Origin: Halobacteriovoraceae bacterium
GTDB lineage: Bacteria > Bdellovibrionota > Bacteriovoracia > Bacteriovoracales > Bacteriovoracaceae
NCBI GenBank assembly: GCA_002712005.1
Contig: PASP01000008.1
Coordinates: 7,187 to 54,151 of the forward strand
DNA: 46,965 nucleotides
Reading direction: 5' to 3'
Made by a program: the position numbers and the translations under genes. This document shows positions 33,681 through 41,007 of the stretch, piece by piece (position 1 is the stretch's first letter; each line of letters begins with the position of its first letter). The notes under the pieces are model-generated. The model saw only the letters and a list, made by a program, of their open reading frames with translations. It did no database searches and was not told the origin of the DNA.

Positions 33681-35090
33681 ATGAGCGAAGTATTAAAATT
33701 AGATGACAAAGATGTCAAAACAAAGAAACAAGAGGCAAACCCTATTAAAATTCCGGAGCTTCAGCATCGTAACTTTAGAAATGATGAGTTTTGGAAGAAG
33801 ATTCCTGCATGGTCTAATGTTTCCCGTGCAGAATTCAAAGACCATTTGTGGCAAATGAAAAATTCAATTCGTAAAGTAGAACAAGTTCAGAAAGTACTTG
33901 GGAAACTTTGTACTAAGGAATTGATGGATGATCTCTTAGAAGGTCAGAAAATCACTCCGATGAATATTCGAATTACTCCCTATATCTTTGCCTTAATCGA
34001 TTGGGAAAATCCTAAGGATGACCCTTTGAGAAAGCAATTCTTGCCTCTTGGTTCACAATTTCTTCCGGATCATCCTTTCTATGCTGAAGATAGTTTAGGG
34101 GAAGATACTGATTCTCCCGTTCCGATGTTGACCCATCGATATCCTGATAAGGTTCTCTTTCTTCCTACAACGATTTGTCCGGTTTATTGTTCCTACTGTA
34201 CAAGAAGTCGTATTATTGGGGGAAGTACAGAATCGGTAGATAAGAATACTTATGGGGCCAACCAAAAGAAATGGGATGATGTCTTTGAATATATTCTTAG
34301 AAATCCTCTAATCGAAGATGTTGTTATTTCAGGTGGTGATAGTTATATGCTAACCCCTGCGCAACTTAAGTATATTGGTGAAGGACTCTTAAATATTCCT
34401 CACATTAGAAGAATTCGTTATGCCTCTAAAGGTGTGGCGATTTTCCCTCAGAAAATTCTAACTGATGATGCTTGGGTACAGGCCCTTCAAGAAATTCACG
34501 ACTATGGTAGAAGCTATGGTAAGCAAGTGGTCGTCCACACTCACTTTAGTTCACCGAAGGAAATCACTCACTGGACCGAGCTTGCGATGGATAGACTCTT
34601 TTCCATGGGGATTACGGTTCGTAATCAGGCCGTCCTGCAAACAGGTGTAAACGATAGTGTCGACACCATGGTTAAACTTACTCGCCAATTGGGCTATCTG
34701 AATATTCAACCCTACTATGTCTACCTACACGATATGGTTCCTGGTTGTGAGCATTTTAGAACCACACTGAGAGAGGGAATCGAATTAGAAAAAGCAGTTC
34801 GTGGAACCACCGCTGGATTTAATACACCTACCTTTGTTTGTGACCTTCCCGGTGGTGGCGGTAAAAGGCATGTGGCCTCTTATGAATACTATGATGAAGA
34901 AAACGGGATATCAGTCTGGAAAGCACCCTATGTGAAACCAGGTGAAGTCTTCACTTACTTCGATCCGATTCATAAGCTCTCTCCTGAAGCACAAAAGCGT
35001 TGGGCCGATCCGAAAACGCAGAAGGAAATGATCAATGCAGCGATTGAGAAAGTGACGAAACGCTCGGATAAGGATGAGAATCAGAAATAA
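33681..35090 (+). CDS. kamA: lysine 2,3-aminomutase (radical SAM, PLP)
   Basis: The enzyme interconverts L-lysine and L-beta-lysine, used in lysine degradation, as an osmolyte precursor or on EF-P. The 469-residue protein has the radical-SAM cluster Cys166-x3-Cys170-x2-Cys173, SGGD at 217-220 and the PLP Lys395 in DLPGGGGKR. Asp351 (YLHDMVPG) and Asp388 (CDLPGGGG) align with the two Asp that bind the lysine side-chain amine in clostridial KAM, where glutamate 2,3-aminomutase has Lys and Asn. This favours lysine as substrate. It is longer than the EpmB branch (about 340). It stands alone, with no ablB-type acetyltransferase or efp beside it. Confidence 0.88.
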   Translation: MSEVLKLDDKDVKTKKQEANPIKIPELQHRNFRNDEFWKKIPAWSNVSRAEFKDHLWQMKNSIRKVEQVQKVLGKLCTKELMDDLLEGQKITPMNIRITPYIFALIDWENPKDDPLRKQFLPLGSQFLPDHPFYAEDSLGEDTDSPVPMLTHRYPDKVLFLPTTICPVYCSYCTRSRIIGGSTESVDKNTYGANQKKWDDVFEYILRNPLIEDVVISGGDSYMLTPAQLKYIGEGLLNIPHIRRIRYASKGVAIFPQKILTDDAWVQALQEIHDYGRSYGKQVVVHTHFSSPKEITHWTELAMDRLFSMGITVRNQAVLQTGVNDSVDTMVKLTRQLGYLNIQPYYVYLHDMVPGCEHFRTTLREGIELEKAVRGTTAGFNTPTFVCDLPGGGGKRHVASYEYYDEENGISVWKAPYVKPGEVFTYFDPIHKLSPEAQKRWADPKTQKEMINAAIEKVTKRSDKDENQK

Positions 35091-35180: not shown

Positions 35181-36734
35181 TCACAGAACTTTATAATCCA
35201 TGATCATGGCACGGTATTGGGCCAAGGCCTCTTGGTAATCAAAGAGGGCTTCAATCAATTTCACACGTGCATCCGCCGTATTTTGTTCACGAATATTGAC
35301 GACGAAGTAATCACTATCTCCCGAATTAAATTTTTGACGTTCACTGGCCTCAAGGCGTATGGCCAATTGAACCTCTCTTTCGGTGTTGTCAGTGATTTCA
35401 TTGAGAGCACGTAATTTTGTGAGAAGTTGATTCAATTTAACATTGAGTTGCTCCGATTTAAATTGAATATCTCTCTCTTTTAAACGCATCATGGCCATAT
35501 TGGCCTGTTCATTTCCTTTGATTTGATTGTACTCAAAGGGAATATTGAGGCTGAGATAAATCTTATGATCTTGAGAATAGAGATTCTTTGGTCCACTGCC
35601 TAGATCTTTAGCATATTCATACTTGAGATCAAGCTTGGGGAGAAAGCGTGTATTGTAGAATTCATTTTCTTTCTTGAGCTGACCCAATTCAACTTTAAGG
35701 GCCTGAAGTGAGTAATTCGTATTAAGAATTTCTTTATAAGATTCATTCGCGTGAATCTTCTCTTTTCTCGCCAAATTCTCTTTAATTGAATTTCTCATTT
35801 CTTTAATGCGCGGAATATGCTTAGCACGGGCTTCAATTGGACGACCTTCACTATCTCGATAATATAAAGAAAGGTAGAGGGCCGAGTTACGAACAGAGGC
35901 CATTAATTTAGCGACATTAGATTTTCTCTTGAGGATATACTGCTCGTTTTCTACGGCGTAGATAGCAGCGAGATCCCCCTTCTTAATTCTCTTTTTAAAG
36001 GCCTCTTGTCTTTGCTCGGCCAATTCTAATAATCCAATGGCCACATCGAGCTTAAGACCCTCTGCAACCCATTTCCAATAAGCGATAGTTGCTTCTTGTT
36101 GCATGACCATAAGAAGATCATTTTGTTTCCACTGACCTGATTCTAAATCAAACTCCGAGAGTCTGAGCTTTAATCGCTTGGCATCGATAGATCTATTTCT
36201 TAGAAGAGAGAGGGAAACTCCTCCCATAACTTCACCTTCATCAAGTGTTTCAACGGCGCCTTCATAGCTAGGAAAATTTCCTTCTGACTTTTTATAACCC
36301 CCGTAGACTTTGGCGTTGAGAAAGGGAAGGGGCTTGGTGGCCTTGGCCTTGTAGTAACTTCCGTTATAATACTCTCCATCACGATCATAGAAATCCACAT
36401 CGAGAGAGGAGTCAAACGCTCCTGTTGCCGCCCTTTGCTTAGATTCGTAATAGATAATCTTATCAAGGGCCATTTTTACTTTTGGAGCATGGTTTCGCGT
36501 GCTCTCTAAGACTTCCTGTAATTCTAGAGGATCTCCGGTATGGATTTCATCGGCAGAATTTAAAAGCTCTGATTGGCCACTTCCTTTCTTTGTTATTTCA
36601 GGCTTTGATCCCGAGGGTCTTGGTTCAGCATGAAGCTGTGAGGTGAGACCGGTCAAAAGACCCAGAAAAAGACCTGTGAAAGAGATAAGCTTTAAAGGAG
36701 CCTGAAGTCTATGATGATGATTCATTTGCGACAC
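35181..36734 (-). CDS. TolC-family outer-membrane channel protein
   Basis: This is the outer-membrane duct of a tripartite exporter. The 517-residue protein has a signal peptide (ending LTSQLHA) and long coiled helices with strands typical of TolC-like proteins. Examples are LQEVLESTRNHAPKVKMALDKIIYYE, AYWKWVAEGLKLDVAIGLLELAEQRQEAFKKRIKKGD and the C-terminal VNIREQNTADARVKLIEALFDYQEALAQYRAM. The start is GTG at 36734 with AAGGA six bases upstream, sharing its first base with the stop of the HlyD gene (TAGTG). It is the last gene of the export operon. Confidence 0.85.
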   Translation of the reverse strand: MSQMNHHHRLQAPLKLISFTGLFLGLLTGLTSQLHAEPRPSGSKPEITKKGSGQSELLNSADEIHTGDPLELQEVLESTRNHAPKVKMALDKIIYYESKQRAATGAFDSSLDVDFYDRDGEYYNGSYYKAKATKPLPFLNAKVYGGYKKSEGNFPSYEGAVETLDEGEVMGGVSLSLLRNRSIDAKRLKLRLSEFDLESGQWKQNDLLMVMQQEATIAYWKWVAEGLKLDVAIGLLELAEQRQEAFKKRIKKGDLAAIYAVENEQYILKRKSNVAKLMASVRNSALYLSLYYRDSEGRPIEARAKHIPRIKEMRNSIKENLARKEKIHANESYKEILNTNYSLQALKVELGQLKKENEFYNTRFLPKLDLKYEYAKDLGSGPKNLYSQDHKIYLSLNIPFEYNQIKGNEQANMAMMRLKERDIQFKSEQLNVKLNQLLTKLRALNEITDNTEREVQLAIRLEASERQKFNSGDSDYFVVNIREQNTADARVKLIEALFDYQEALAQYRAMIMDYKVL

Positions 36735-37831
36735 TATTTATCCTTATCTTCTTTATCTGAGTCAGAATAGTCAGAGCCCGAACCTTTCTTGGTGACATTA
36801 TGAAGCTCACTCGTATACGAGTTATCAACGGTGGGTGGAAATCCGTTAAAGAGTCGCCACAACTCATAACCTAATTTTACTGTATCTAAGAGCACCCAGC
36901 CCACAACTCGGGTTCCTTGGCGCAAATAAATATTATCAGGCCAGTCACCGCCTTTACCTTTACTAGGGGCGATGAGTACTCGAAACTTTCCTTGCTTATT
37001 TACAGAGGGATCGACGCTAAAGACTTTTCCAGGAAAGGTCCCCACCGCGATAGAAGGCCAACCACTAAATTGAACGGCCGGCCATCCTTCAAATTGAAGG
37101 CGAACATGGCGTCCTGGCTGAATAAGGGGCAAATCATTTCCATCCACAAAGATCTCCACTGCGGGCTTGAGGTGATCGGGAACAAAGACGGCCAATTGAT
37201 CTCCACTTTTAACAAAGACCGAGCCACCACCTTGAAGAACACTGAGAACCGTTCCATCTCTTTCCGCAGTTACTAGTTGTCGTTGCTGACGGGAGAACTT
37301 TACTTCAACCTTGGCCAGGGATGCCGCAGCCGAAGCTTCTTCGGATAAGAGTTTCTTATATGTAATTTGTGCTTTTTCAAGAGTGAGTTTGGAACTTAGG
37401 CCTTGCTTGTAGAGTTCTTTTTGGCGAACAAAGTTGTTATAGGCCGTTTCACTTGCGGTTTTTGAAGCTTCAAACTTTGCTAAGACCGCATCTCTTTCAA
37501 TCTTAAGGCGTTCAACAAAATTGGGATCATTATCTACGATCTCCACAATGGGATCACCAACCTTTACCTTGTCTCCGTCTTTAACAAACCACTTATTGAT
37601 ACGACCTGATACCGGAGCATTCACATATTGAACACGATCATTAGGGTCAATGGCCGTTACTCTTCCCACCCCTGTAGAAGTTTGCTGCCAAGGGGTAATA
37701 GCAAAGACAATGGCCATTAAACCAAAGGCCGCCATAAGGATGAGGACAAAGACTCTTTGCCAAGAGGGAATGACCACACGTCTTAAGCTTGAATAGTTGA
37801 GTTTTTTATTTGTTTCGTTCATCTCGTTCAC
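36734..37831 (-). CDS. HlyD-family periplasmic adaptor
   Basis: It links the inner-membrane ABC protein to the TolC-type channel. The 365-residue protein has one membrane segment (VFVLILMAAFGLMAIVFAI). A lipoyl-like half motif follows (VNAPVSGRINKWFVKDGDKVKVGDPIVEI), then a helical hairpin (about residues 110-190) and the second lipoyl half (AERDGTVLSVL). A beta-barrel region comes next and the tail is Ser/Asp/Lys-rich. An odd feature is a second short hydrophobic stretch near residue 315 (VVGWVLLDTVKLGYELW). The start is GTG at 37831 or ATG at 37822; neither has a strong ribosome-binding site, but the ABC gene ends 10 bases earlier. Confidence 0.88.
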   Translation of the reverse strand: MNEMNETNKKLNYSSLRRVVIPSWQRVFVLILMAAFGLMAIVFAITPWQQTSTGVGRVTAIDPNDRVQYVNAPVSGRINKWFVKDGDKVKVGDPIVEIVDNDPNFVERLKIERDAVLAKFEASKTASETAYNNFVRQKELYKQGLSSKLTLEKAQITYKKLLSEEASAAASLAKVEVKFSRQQRQLVTAERDGTVLSVLQGGGSVFVKSGDQLAVFVPDHLKPAVEIFVDGNDLPLIQPGRHVRLQFEGWPAVQFSGWPSIAVGTFPGKVFSVDPSVNKQGKFRVLIAPSKGKGGDWPDNIYLRQGTRVVGWVLLDTVKLGYELWRLFNGFPPTVDNSYTSELHNVTKKGSGSDYSDSDKEDKDK

Positions 37832-37841
37832 TTTTATTCAA

Positions 37842-39518
37842 TTAAGGGTTTGGAGTTGGCGACTTCTTATAGTCTTGGTGAAATTCAAGCTTTTCATCAA
37901 AGAGAAGTTTGCAATGTTCAAACTCATCATGGCTAAAGCTAAGCACCATGACACCGATATTCTGTCCCTTTAACTCAATTAAAATGGCCTTTTGCAATTC
38001 AGGTCGTAGCTGATTAAAGAGAGAAGAGATAACGACCCATTTTGGCTTTTGGAGAAGCACTCTGGCGAATTCTAATTGAATCAACTCACCCCAACGAAAG
38101 AGTGAGCAACCATGCCAAATTTGGGTTTCCAGACCTTCTGGAAGATTGTTGATTTTTTCAGAGAGAAGAGTTGCATCTACCGCATGGTTAAGCTGTGACT
38201 CGGTCACTTTATCGACGCTCCAAGTGAGGTTATCTAAAATCGAGCCCTGAATAATTCTTGGGGCATCAACTAAATAAATCTCCTCTCTTAAATCCATAAG
38301 AGGAATATCTTCGTAAGGAATTCCACTCCAGATGATATCTCCCGTTTTGGGCTGATTATGGGCGTGAAGTAAACTCATAAAGGTTCTTTGGGTACAATCC
38401 TTATCGATCACGATGTGATAGCAAGAGCCTTTTTGAAAGCTGTGATGGAAGTGATACTTCTCCTTATTTTCATTTTCTATCGCAATATTATCAAAAACAA
38501 GAGGTCCATCACCGATACTATTTTGTTCCTCAAGTTGAGGAAGTTCTTTTTCTGATTGAAGAATCTCAAAGTCTTCTAACTTATCCAAGGCCGCATAGAT
38601 ATCATAGAATGATTCTAGATAACCTCCAGATTTCGCAATCCCGGTTAAGATGAGGGCCACGACAATCTCAGCGGAAACCAATTGTCCAAGGGTAAGTTGA
38701 CCTTCCATGACAAGGAAGCCTCCTAGCCCGAGGATAAGCGCACTCATGAGAGCATAGATACAGAGGGAGAAAATAATCTGTTTAAAGAGATAATTGAAGT
38801 GAGTAAAACGTCTCGTTAAATAGAGGTTGATATGACCATCAGTTGCCTTGATAGCACTTTGATGTGATTTTCTACCATAGAACATATGACGGTTGTATAT
38901 GAGCTCCTCTAACCAAGCAGCTGCCTTGTATTTGGCCTTCGACTCATAAATAGAAGTTTCAATTCCGGCCTTTCCATAGAGCTTCCACATCAGATAAATC
39001 AATCCAATGAGAACAATATCAAAGGCCAAGAAATAAGGGTGATAGAAGGCCAAAAGAAACATACCGGCAATCGTTTGCAAGACAAGAGTGATCCCATCGA
39101 TGAGAAGCTTTGTGGATTGCTTTTGAATCGACATGATTTCAAAGTAGCGATTAACAAGATCGCCTTTATAGACTGAATTCACACTCTTTTGAGTCGAGGT
39201 AAGAATTTTATCTGCTATATGTACGGTTAAGCGAGCATAGAAATGGCGCTGGAAGTATTCAACCGTTAAGTCTTGGAGGGCCCTAAGAACACCACTGAAA
39301 ATGAGGAGACCTAATAAGAGGACACTCACCACAATAAGAGGTTGCTTAAGCACAGCGAAGGTAACGGTATTAACTAAACTCTGAACTGATATAGGAATGG
39401 CCAAACTTAATAAACTGGTACCAATGGCATAGATGAAGGTAACAAAATAAAAGTTCTTCTCTGGCCATAGAATTTTCTTCCACAGATATTTACCTGAGGC
39501 CTTTTGAGGATTATTCAT
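37842..39518 (-). CDS. ABC exporter half-transporter with a degenerate, probably inactive ATPase domain
   Basis: This is the inner-membrane component of the TolC/HlyD system; 558 residues from the ATG at 39518. A TTG start at 39575 is possible but adds a poor lead. Residues about 25-300 form an ABC type I membrane domain with six hydrophobic segments. Residues 340-545 follow the ABC ATPase fold, but key motifs are gone. The Walker A position reads DKDCTQRT (372-379), with no Gly and Arg in place of Lys. The Q-loop Gln is replaced in LVDAPRI, the signature reads SLFRWGEL (472-479) and Walker B ends ISS (497-499). Only the H-loop His530 remains. There is no C39 peptidase domain. The frame is otherwise intact, with no stops or shifts. 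Confidence 0.88.
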   Translation of the reverse strand: MNNPQKASGKYLWKKILWPEKNFYFVTFIYAIGTSLLSLAIPISVQSLVNTVTFAVLKQPLIVVSVLLLGLLIFSGVLRALQDLTVEYFQRHFYARLTVHIADKILTSTQKSVNSVYKGDLVNRYFEIMSIQKQSTKLLIDGITLVLQTIAGMFLLAFYHPYFLAFDIVLIGLIYLMWKLYGKAGIETSIYESKAKYKAAAWLEELIYNRHMFYGRKSHQSAIKATDGHINLYLTRRFTHFNYLFKQIIFSLCIYALMSALILGLGGFLVMEGQLTLGQLVSAEIVVALILTGIAKSGGYLESFYDIYAALDKLEDFEILQSEKELPQLEEQNSIGDGPLVFDNIAIENENKEKYHFHHSFQKGSCYHIVIDKDCTQRTFMSLLHAHNQPKTGDIIWSGIPYEDIPLMDLREEIYLVDAPRIIQGSILDNLTWSVDKVTESQLNHAVDATLLSEKINNLPEGLETQIWHGCSLFRWGELIQLEFARVLLQKPKWVVISSLFNQLRPELQKAILIELKGQNIGVMVLSFSHDEFEHCKLLFDEKLEFHQDYKKSPTPNP

Positions 39519-39678
39519 GAAGGTGCGTCCCGCGAATCCGTAAGTATTTACTATTAAACAGTATCTCCTGTTCAATTAAATCGATCAAGTTAGGATTTTA
39601 GACAATAGCGAACCTAATGAAAATATAATAGAAGGAATTTTTGCAAAGAGTTAACGATAGAGTGGAAAAGAAAAGCGG

Positions 39679-41007
39679 TTAAGCGAGCTTCTTCTGCATT
39701 GCGCCGTTGCGATCACTTGCCCTGCGGTGAGTAACACTCTTAATACTGTCGAGAAGCTCGGGGTAGTGGCGGATGATTTGGATGAAATCATCTTTAGATA
39801 GACGATAGAGATCGGTATAGGCACTGGCCCTGATATTGGCATTACGTGTCGTTTCTTGAATAAGTGCCGCTTCTCCAAAGAACTGACCTTCATGGAGTTG
39901 GGCAACGGTTTTTCCATCATCGGTGATCACATCAACAATACCGTGACCTATGATGAACATTTCATCTCCGATTTCACCAATATTGATAATCGTATCCCCT
40001 GGAGAGTAGAACTTCTGCTCAAGGGCCCCTGAAACTTCACGTAAACAAGCGATAGAGCAAAATTGAAAGACAGGAAGATTCCTAATCAATTTCATATTCA
40101 TAAAGACTTGAAGTTCTTGTTTTAAAGCATGGGGGAGTTCAGAGATAATCTGAGTATCATTGTCACTCAAACGTTTATTATAGAGATGTCCATAGTAATT
40201 AAATACTGCAGACTGCAGTTTACTTGGGATATGGTAGTACTTCATAAAGGCATTGAGTTCAGCGAATTTTTCACGTCCCTGTTCTTTGTAACGAGCGGAT
40301 TCAGCAAAAATTCTACTGATATTACCAATAACAAAACCGTAAACCCCAACTCCAATAAACATCACAAACATAGTATAGATACGACCAGCATTGGTTTTAG
40401 GGGTAATATCTCCATAACCTACAGTGGTAAGAGTCGTCACGGTCCAGTAGAAGCATTCGATATAGTAACTGGTTCTATCCATATTGGCGGGCAGGGGATG
40501 GAACATAATCCAAAAGCATGAGAACCAATGGACCACAATCATAGAGGAAACAAAGGCCAGTGAGATTTTTAGCCACCCAGAGATAAGGGGCATGGAATTG
40601 AAAACTTGAAAAATCTTAACAATTCGTACCAGGCGAATCATACGCAGAAGCTTTATTGTCTTAGCTGAAACCATTCCTATGGGACCGAGCATATATCCAA
40701 GCATATAAAAAATAAGATCAAAGGGAATAATCGCCACGATATCAATGAAAGAATAGATCTTAAATTGGCGGGCACTTATCCTTTGGGTTGGTGGTAGCTC
40801 TGATTGTTTCTTATATTTACGGATTGAGTAGATGAAATCCGCAATAAAAAGAGCGCTAATGATACCATCTGCAATGACCTGCCAGAATTGAATTTTAGTA
40901 TCAAATGTAAAGGTAAAGGGGGCTTCAGCTGCAGAGAAAACAACTGCGGCAAAGACTATACCTAGCCATATCCCTTCGCCTTTTGTGAGTTGATTTTGTT
41001 GCATCAA
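39679..41007 (-). CDS. voltage-sensor-type potassium channel with a cyclic-nucleotide-binding domain
   Basis: The 442-residue inner-membrane protein has six membrane segments. The S4-like helix is rich in Arg and Lys at three-residue spacing (KTIKLLRMIRLVRIVKIF, about 116-133), and the pore helix and selectivity filter are TTLTTVGYGD (191-200). After S6 comes a C-linker (EKFAELNAFMKYYHIPSKLQ) and a cNMP-binding domain (about 310-425). Its phosphate-binding cassette FFGEAALIQETTRNANIRA keeps the Glu379 and Arg388 needed for cyclic-nucleotide binding. It resembles CNG/HCN/EAG-type channels. It lies 160 bases upstream of the export operon in the same direction; cotranscription is possible but not shown. 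Confidence 0.93.
   Translation of the reverse strand: MMQQNQLTKGEGIWLGIVFAAVVFSAAEAPFTFTFDTKIQFWQVIADGIISALFIADFIYSIRKYKKQSELPPTQRISARQFKIYSFIDIVAIIPFDLIFYMLGYMLGPIGMVSAKTIKLLRMIRLVRIVKIFQVFNSMPLISGWLKISLAFVSSMIVVHWFSCFWIMFHPLPANMDRTSYYIECFYWTVTTLTTVGYGDITPKTNAGRIYTMFVMFIGVGVYGFVIGNISRIFAESARYKEQGREKFAELNAFMKYYHIPSKLQSAVFNYYGHLYNKRLSDNDTQIISELPHALKQELQVFMNMKLIRNLPVFQFCSIACLREVSGALEQKFYSPGDTIINIGEIGDEMFIIGHGIVDVITDDGKTVAQLHEGQFFGEAALIQETTRNANIRASAYTDLYRLSKDDFIQIIRHYPELLDSIKSVTHRRASDRNGAMQKKLA

Follow-up and report, generated by a model that had tools for sequence, protein, structure and literature searches.

An ABC-exporter-like protein without ATPase motifs in a HlyD/TolC cassette, and relatives that lack the ATPase domain altogether

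Introduction

How might a three-component exporter be driven when its only ABC protein carries none of the ATPase motifs? The question is raised by a cassette in the window (by which we mean the whole stretch of 46,965 nucleotides of Halobacteriovoraceae DNA that was analysed), where an ABC-exporter-like gene is followed by genes for a HlyD-like adaptor and a TolC-like outer-membrane factor. A sequence-only reading of this DNA had held that random decay does not account for the loss of the motifs. It proposed that the operon might encode a conserved exporter, powered by another ATPase or by a different energy source, or gated as a fixed conduit. We followed up this proposal computationally.

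Results

The open reading frames of the cassette were confirmed at window positions 35181-39518 on the minus strand, and all three are intact. As the earlier reading had stated, the HlyD-like and TolC-like partners are complete: both are full length, belong to the same operon and score 568 and 606 bits, respectively, against family profiles (which include the window's own proteins). An alternative in-frame TTG start at 39575 would lengthen the ABC-like protein to 577 aa. The features referred to below are the following:

37842..39518, minus strand: ABC-exporter-like protein, 558 aa from the ATG at 39518; fold of a type IV exporter, the NBD being catalytically empty
38544..39518, minus strand: membrane domain (residues 1-325) with six TM helices; the portion under strong conservation
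39258..39260, minus strand: E87 in TM2; about 100% in the family
39174..39212, minus strand: ICL1 tip, residues 103-115; includes the predicted coupling helix 110-115 and is shorter in all relatives without an NBD
39039..39041, minus strand: H160, in the YHP between TM3 and TM4; about 100% in the family
38844..38900, minus strand: ICL2 tip, residues 207-225; includes the predicted coupling helix 210-213 and is likewise shorter in all relatives without an NBD
38667..38669, minus strand: E284 in TM6; in 91% of the unbiased set and in all NBD-less members covering the site
37845..38519, minus strand: pseudo-NBD, residues 334-558; fold of an ABC ATPase, all catalytic residues absent
38382..38405, minus strand: Walker A position, DKDCTQRT, residues 372-379; K-S replaced by Q-R
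38259..38273, minus strand: Q-loop position, LVDAP, residues 416-420; no Gln
38082..38105, minus strand: signature position, SLFRWGEL, residues 472-479
38022..38039, minus strand: Walker B position, WVVISS, residues 494-499; neither Asp nor Glu
37929..37946, minus strand: H-loop region, VLSFSH, residues 525-530; the H-loop column is F528
36734..37831, minus strand: HlyD-like periplasmic adaptor, 365 aa; starts 10 bases after the ABC gene
35181..36734, minus strand: TolC-like outer-membrane factor, 517 aa; overlaps the HlyD-like gene by one base

The gene immediately upstream of the cassette, in the same orientation (39679-41007, minus strand), encodes an ion channel with a cyclic-nucleotide-binding domain; it was not found adjoining the cassette in the genus relatives. 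A lysine 2,3-aminomutase-like radical SAM protein of the KamA family is encoded on the plus strand (33681-35090), facing the cassette.

In a Pfam scan (the earlier reading had recommended a search with HMMs), the ABC-like protein matched ABC_membrane (PF00664, 35.2 bits, above the cut-off) and gave no match to ABC_tran (PF00005), a profile that matches 44 places elsewhere in the source genome. AlphaFold2, supplied with 42 sequences, predicted a complete type IV exporter with a mean pLDDT of 86 (92-97 over most of the NBD). The structures nearest to this model by Foldseek and VIA-align were exporters, with VIA-align Z scores of 24.1 for PCAT1 and 22.7 for HlyB; the NBD alone aligned with that of ComA at Z 22.9 and an rmsd of 2.8. 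SbmA was absent from the VIA-align list, but since the list is a re-ranking this absence carries no weight either way. The claim that the membrane domain and the overall ATPase fold are intact, in an open frame, is thus borne out.

All five ATPase motifs are nonetheless replaced. For Walker A, the Q-loop, the signature and Walker B the alignment columns agree with the earlier reading, which however had taken the H-loop histidine to remain. It does not: the H-loop column is occupied by F528, while H530 lies two residues further on, at a position where no genus relative has a His. Of the sequence-based criteria for an ATP-driven exporter, the window protein meets two (the exporter fold and the HlyD/TolC partners) and fails another, a motif-bearing ATPase domain. 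A heterodimer with a normal ABC subunit was considered and rejected, there being no second ABC gene in the cassette; moreover, because Walker A and the signature are both lost, both composite sites would be spoiled even with a normal NBD partner, as they would in a homodimer.

The motif loss is common to all six other species of the genus, and every frame is open. The replacement at Walker A, D-x-TQR, is kept in seven of seven genus members, and of 16 Alteromonadaceae 14 have Q and then R or K at the same position. Within the genus, the cassette ABC protein is 62-66% identical over the membrane domain and 30-39% over the NBD, whereas an MsbA-like exporter of the canonical type, taken from these genomes too, gives 72-75% and 74-79%; the pattern of domain conservation is the reverse of that of the canonical exporter.

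All pairs in the window's genus were too distant for dN/dS, and the ratios were consequently taken from closer pairs of motif-less homologues elsewhere. They came to 0.02 (L176/L177), 0.045 (L283/L284) and 0.089 (L285/L287) for the NBD and to 0.005-0.018 for the membrane domains of those pairs. The NBD values are low yet above those of the membrane domain, meaning that the pseudo-NBD is constrained, albeit less than the membrane domain. As far as sequence comparison can tell, these ratios show purifying selection on motif-less homologues; for the window's own genus it is only inferred from relatives.

Could the ABC gene nevertheless be a decaying pseudogene or the product of a sequencing error? 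A few relatives are indeed split or truncated (L149 and L170, and L030, L315 and L316 at contig ends). This explanation is hardly credible, however, given the open frames and shared replacements of the genus relatives, the purifying selection seen in motif-less homologues and the conservation of the three-gene cassette across differing contexts. The earlier reading had named two findings that would refute it, homologues with intact motifs implying a frameshift in the window and close relatives with a pseudogenised ATPase domain; neither was found. Its statement that the loss is not random decay is upheld, the loss being conserved, recurrent and under purifying selection.

A profile search with the membrane domain recovered the family in 44 of the 129 genomes of the window's own family, in 49 of 241 sampled from its phylum, and in Planctomycetia (84/149), Polyangia (30/116) and Alteromonadaceae (17/197). 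Among named records, the window's relatives fall in Bacteriovoracaceae/Halobacteriovoraceae, and other members in Planctomycetota, Myxococcota, Acidobacteriota, Alteromonas and Parvularcula; sphingomonad plasmids also carry the cassette. Some members are annotated "ABC transporter ATP-binding protein", and no earlier description of the family was found in the literature searched, from which most subscription papers were out of scope. Planctomycete and myxobacterial members (L104, L109, L091, L146) have an N-terminal extension of about 150-380 aa, without any Pfam match.

When each catalytic position was scored as one alignment column, no member out of about 197 that bear an NBD had the complete set (K+Q+D+E+H), i.e., the lysine of Walker A, the Gln of the Q-loop, the Asp of Walker B, the catalytic acid and the His of the H-loop. 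Planctomycetia keep the Walker lysine in 25 of 28 cases and the Asp in all 28, with the catalytic Glu and the H-loop His in none of the 28; Alteromonadaceae have almost no catalytic residues left. Only nine other Bdellovibrionota and L140 retain K+D+E+H, and, judging from these residues, may still use ATP. An apparent Q-loop Gln in genus g25 proved to belong to an adjacent position and disappeared once single columns were counted. On a FastTree phylogeny of 93 representatives, the lysine-less group required at least 10 changes over well-supported branches, so that motif decay appears recurrent; the count is approximate, as the root is uncertain and counts cannot separate loss from gain.

About 25 loci encode the membrane domain without any NBD, as a protein of roughly 281-316 aa directly before HlyD and TolC. 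Some 23 of them belong to the window's family (L036, L147, L148, L150-L169, L171), a few cut by contig ends, with HlyD/TolC seen where the contig allows; the other two, L211 and L212, come from another bacterial family and are placed by the tree apart from the main NBD-less clade. In every NBD-less member examined there are deletions within 103-118 and 207-229, the stretches that in the AlphaFold2 model cover the predicted coupling helices (110-115 and 210-213). We count at least two, and probably three, independent losses of the NBD.

Five further candidates for the NBD-less group (L030, L149, L315, L316, L215) were set aside as contig ends or frameshifts. The membrane domain is split across two frames in L170 (4050-4938) and L149 (3556-5291), either by a frameshift or by local decay. 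At L213 (4187-5362), from a third bacterial family, the membrane domain runs straight into HlyD N-terminal sequence; this looks like a membrane domain-HlyD fusion, but the rest of HlyD lies in other frames and a sequencing error is possible. Genomes of genus g25 (e.g., G120, G129 and G136) hold two cassettes each, one with a pseudo-NBD and Ala at the E284 position, the other NBD-less and with E284.

The membrane domain carries a set of conserved charges. One set of loci, from named records, had been found with a search pattern that included E284 and was biased for that reason; with these left out, 153 members remained, in which E87 and H160 are present in about 100%, K196 in 99%, K133 and E284 in 91% each and E192 in 87%. 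In canonical exporters of related genomes the same positions are occupied by T/R/F (E87), S/C/S (H160), L/F/M (K196), N/T/A (K133), L/I/V (E284) and A/N/C (E192). Inferring from helix boundaries, these charges would fall into two groups, with E87, K133, E192, K196 and H240 nearer the cytosol and H160 and E284 nearer the periplasm. In genus g25 the full-length paralogues have Ala instead of E284, and L172 has Phe; this glutamate therefore cannot be essential in all members.

In the gene neighbourhoods examined no linked substrate gene was found; contexts differ between genera, plasmids and phyla, and no substrate could be assigned in this way. A LysR gene resembling NhaR does recur beside the cassette: it lies within 400 bp upstream in 9/17 Alteromonadaceae and 6/25 loci without an NBD, and in 4/23 other Bdellovibrionota and 4/29 Polyangia, in divergent orientation at L137, L142, L143, L154, L155, L157, L158, L160, L168, L226, L227 and others. 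It has no counterpart in the window's genus (0/7). NhaR was the best NCBIfam match for all eight LysR regulators tested, above the cut-off for two, and the genomes tested hold zero to four NhaR-like genes each (E 1e-25). Since this neighbour spans cassettes with intact, degenerate and deleted NBDs, it suggests one function across NBD states. NhaR is a sodium-responsive regulator in E. coli, and it is our guess from this lead that the cassette has to do with ion or pH stress.

Discussion

That the window protein has lost its ATPase is well supported. Insofar as homologous sequences alone allow, the comparisons indicate that the NBD keeps its fold and is catalytically empty, that the loss of motifs is conserved, recurrent and selected, and that the NBD has been deleted together with both coupling tips more than once while the membrane domain, HlyD and TolC stay together. 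These observations support the suggestion that the operon is a conserved exporter driven by other means. The explanation we favour, with moderate confidence, is a working tripartite exporter that descends from a type-I-secretion ABC ancestor, is no longer driven by its own ATPase and is probably coupled to ions or protons; the energy source and the substrate are inferred. In such an exporter, a dimer of the membrane domain would dock onto the HlyD/TolC conduit and switch conformation by itself, and export would be coupled to an ion gradient, most likely of protons, through the charged network absent from canonical ABC exporters (E87, K133, E192, K196, H240, H160 and E284). The remaining pseudo-NBD may act as a dimerisation or gating scaffold, dispensable in some lineages. 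Ion coupling, probably to protons, is favoured by the conserved charges and by the precedents of SbmA, LmrA and MsbA described below, in the absence of any ion-coupling measurement. Against this explanation, there are no data on transport, ATP binding or ion coupling, and exposure of the charges to the cavity is not established. The replacement of E284 in some members, the few members that may still use ATP and the lack of a linked substrate gene also count against it.

The same observations bear on other ways of running the cassette. The membrane domain could be powered in trans by a separate canonical NBD or some other cytosolic ATPase, the attached NBD being a relic. The source genome encodes many canonical NBDs, split genes for membrane domain and NBD exist in the YddA family (PMC13316013), and type I secretion-domain proteins have in some bacteria been linked to secondary SecA_DEAD proteins, with SecA proposed as the ATPase (PMC4452313). 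Yet in separate lineages the members without an NBD are also without both coupling-helix tips, i.e., the surface on which an NBD docks, which makes drive by an NBD in trans unlikely for them; in full-length members the attached pseudo-NBD would fill the docking site, and neither an NBD nor a SecA gene recurs beside the cassette in the neighbourhoods examined. We consider this arrangement quite unlikely. Also unlikely, albeit not excluded, is a passive conduit, that is, a substrate-gated facilitator whose direction follows from the substrate gradient: a solute made at high intracellular concentration could leave through TolC in a single step, E284 is replaced in some members, and no energy source has been demonstrated. 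A simple pore, however, hardly explains the conservation of E87, H160 and K196, and the NBD-less ABC-type membrane domains measured so far are ion-coupled.

It is also conceivable that the family ancestrally gates by ATP binding without efficient hydrolysis, and that the window's pseudo-NBD, as an extreme form, still senses a ligand. This can be likened to degenerate ABC sites and would fit the Planctomycetia, with their Walker lysine and no catalytic Glu or H-loop His, as well as the selection on the pseudo-NBD in relatives and the fold kept in the window protein. We nevertheless deem such a switch very unlikely, as neither the Walker lysine nor the Walker B Asp is present in the window protein or elsewhere in its genus, and the NBD-less relatives retain HlyD and TolC. 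Of the three options raised by the sequence-only reading, a different energy source thus remains the one favoured.

We are evenly divided on a broader interpretation, namely, that the family stands next to the ABC, RND and MFS types as a tripartite exporter class of its own, with an ABC-derived, ion-driven subunit placed on HlyD/TolC in several phyla after repeated decay of the ATPase and then its deletion, all stages being still alive. If this is true, the class arises repeatedly by that route. A natural switch from primary to secondary transport is known from one case, SbmA, whose origin was reconstructed from sequence relatives; the present family displays the stages side by side, from members with the lysine kept and the Glu gone, through members with all motifs gone, to members in which the domain and its docking helices are deleted. 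The contribution of the ATPase to an ABC exporter would become testable with natural proteins, and the distribution points to a widespread, as yet unassigned export system in Planctomycetota, Myxococcota, Bdellovibrionota, Alteromonadaceae and sphingomonad plasmids.

Among known systems, HlyB-HlyD-TolC (HlyB, PDB 8dck/7sgr; PrtD, 5l22) has the same three-component cassette and a type IV ABC membrane domain, and among solved structures HlyB matches the sequence of the window's membrane domain best. Unlike type I secretion systems, the window protein lacks the catalytic residues, some 25 relatives lack the NBD, the family has membrane-domain charges unseen in canonical exporters, and no substrate gene was recognised nearby. 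Altered catalytic residues also occur in heterodimeric exporters with a degenerate site (TM287/288, TmrAB, PatAB), but these keep one working composite site, whereas the only ABC subunit of the window cassette is without Walker A and signature.

The isolated membrane domains LmrA-MD and MsbA-MD transport on ion gradients without an NBD, and the pH dependence of LmrA requires a glutamate in TM6, E314 (PMC2704374, PMC4979069); equivalence with E284 in TM6 of the window protein is not established. Those proteins are laboratory truncations of ATP-driven transporters, whereas the loss in the present family is natural and selected. SbmA, in turn, has a membrane domain of the ABC type, lacks both the NBD and the coupling helices, and is driven by the proton gradient; it arose from an ABC transporter through loss of both elements and uses protonatable glutamates (PMC13316013). 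The family shares with SbmA/BacA (the SLiPT, proton-driven peptide importers) an ABC exporter membrane fold without a working ATPase and conserved protonatable residues (a proton-coupled glutamate ladder like that of SbmA/BacA could at most be inferred from the conserved E87, H160, E192, K196 and E284), although the SbmA_BacA Pfam profile matched neither the window protein nor any of 53 members scanned, NBD-less ones included. The NBD-less relatives, like SbmA/BacA, have lost the NBD and the coupling helices, whereas the window protein keeps a pseudo-NBD and both tips. The family differs from SbmA/BacA in that it belongs to another, HlyB/PrtD-like branch of ABC proteins, is tied to HlyD/TolC and presumably to export, and includes surviving intermediates with a pseudo-NBD.
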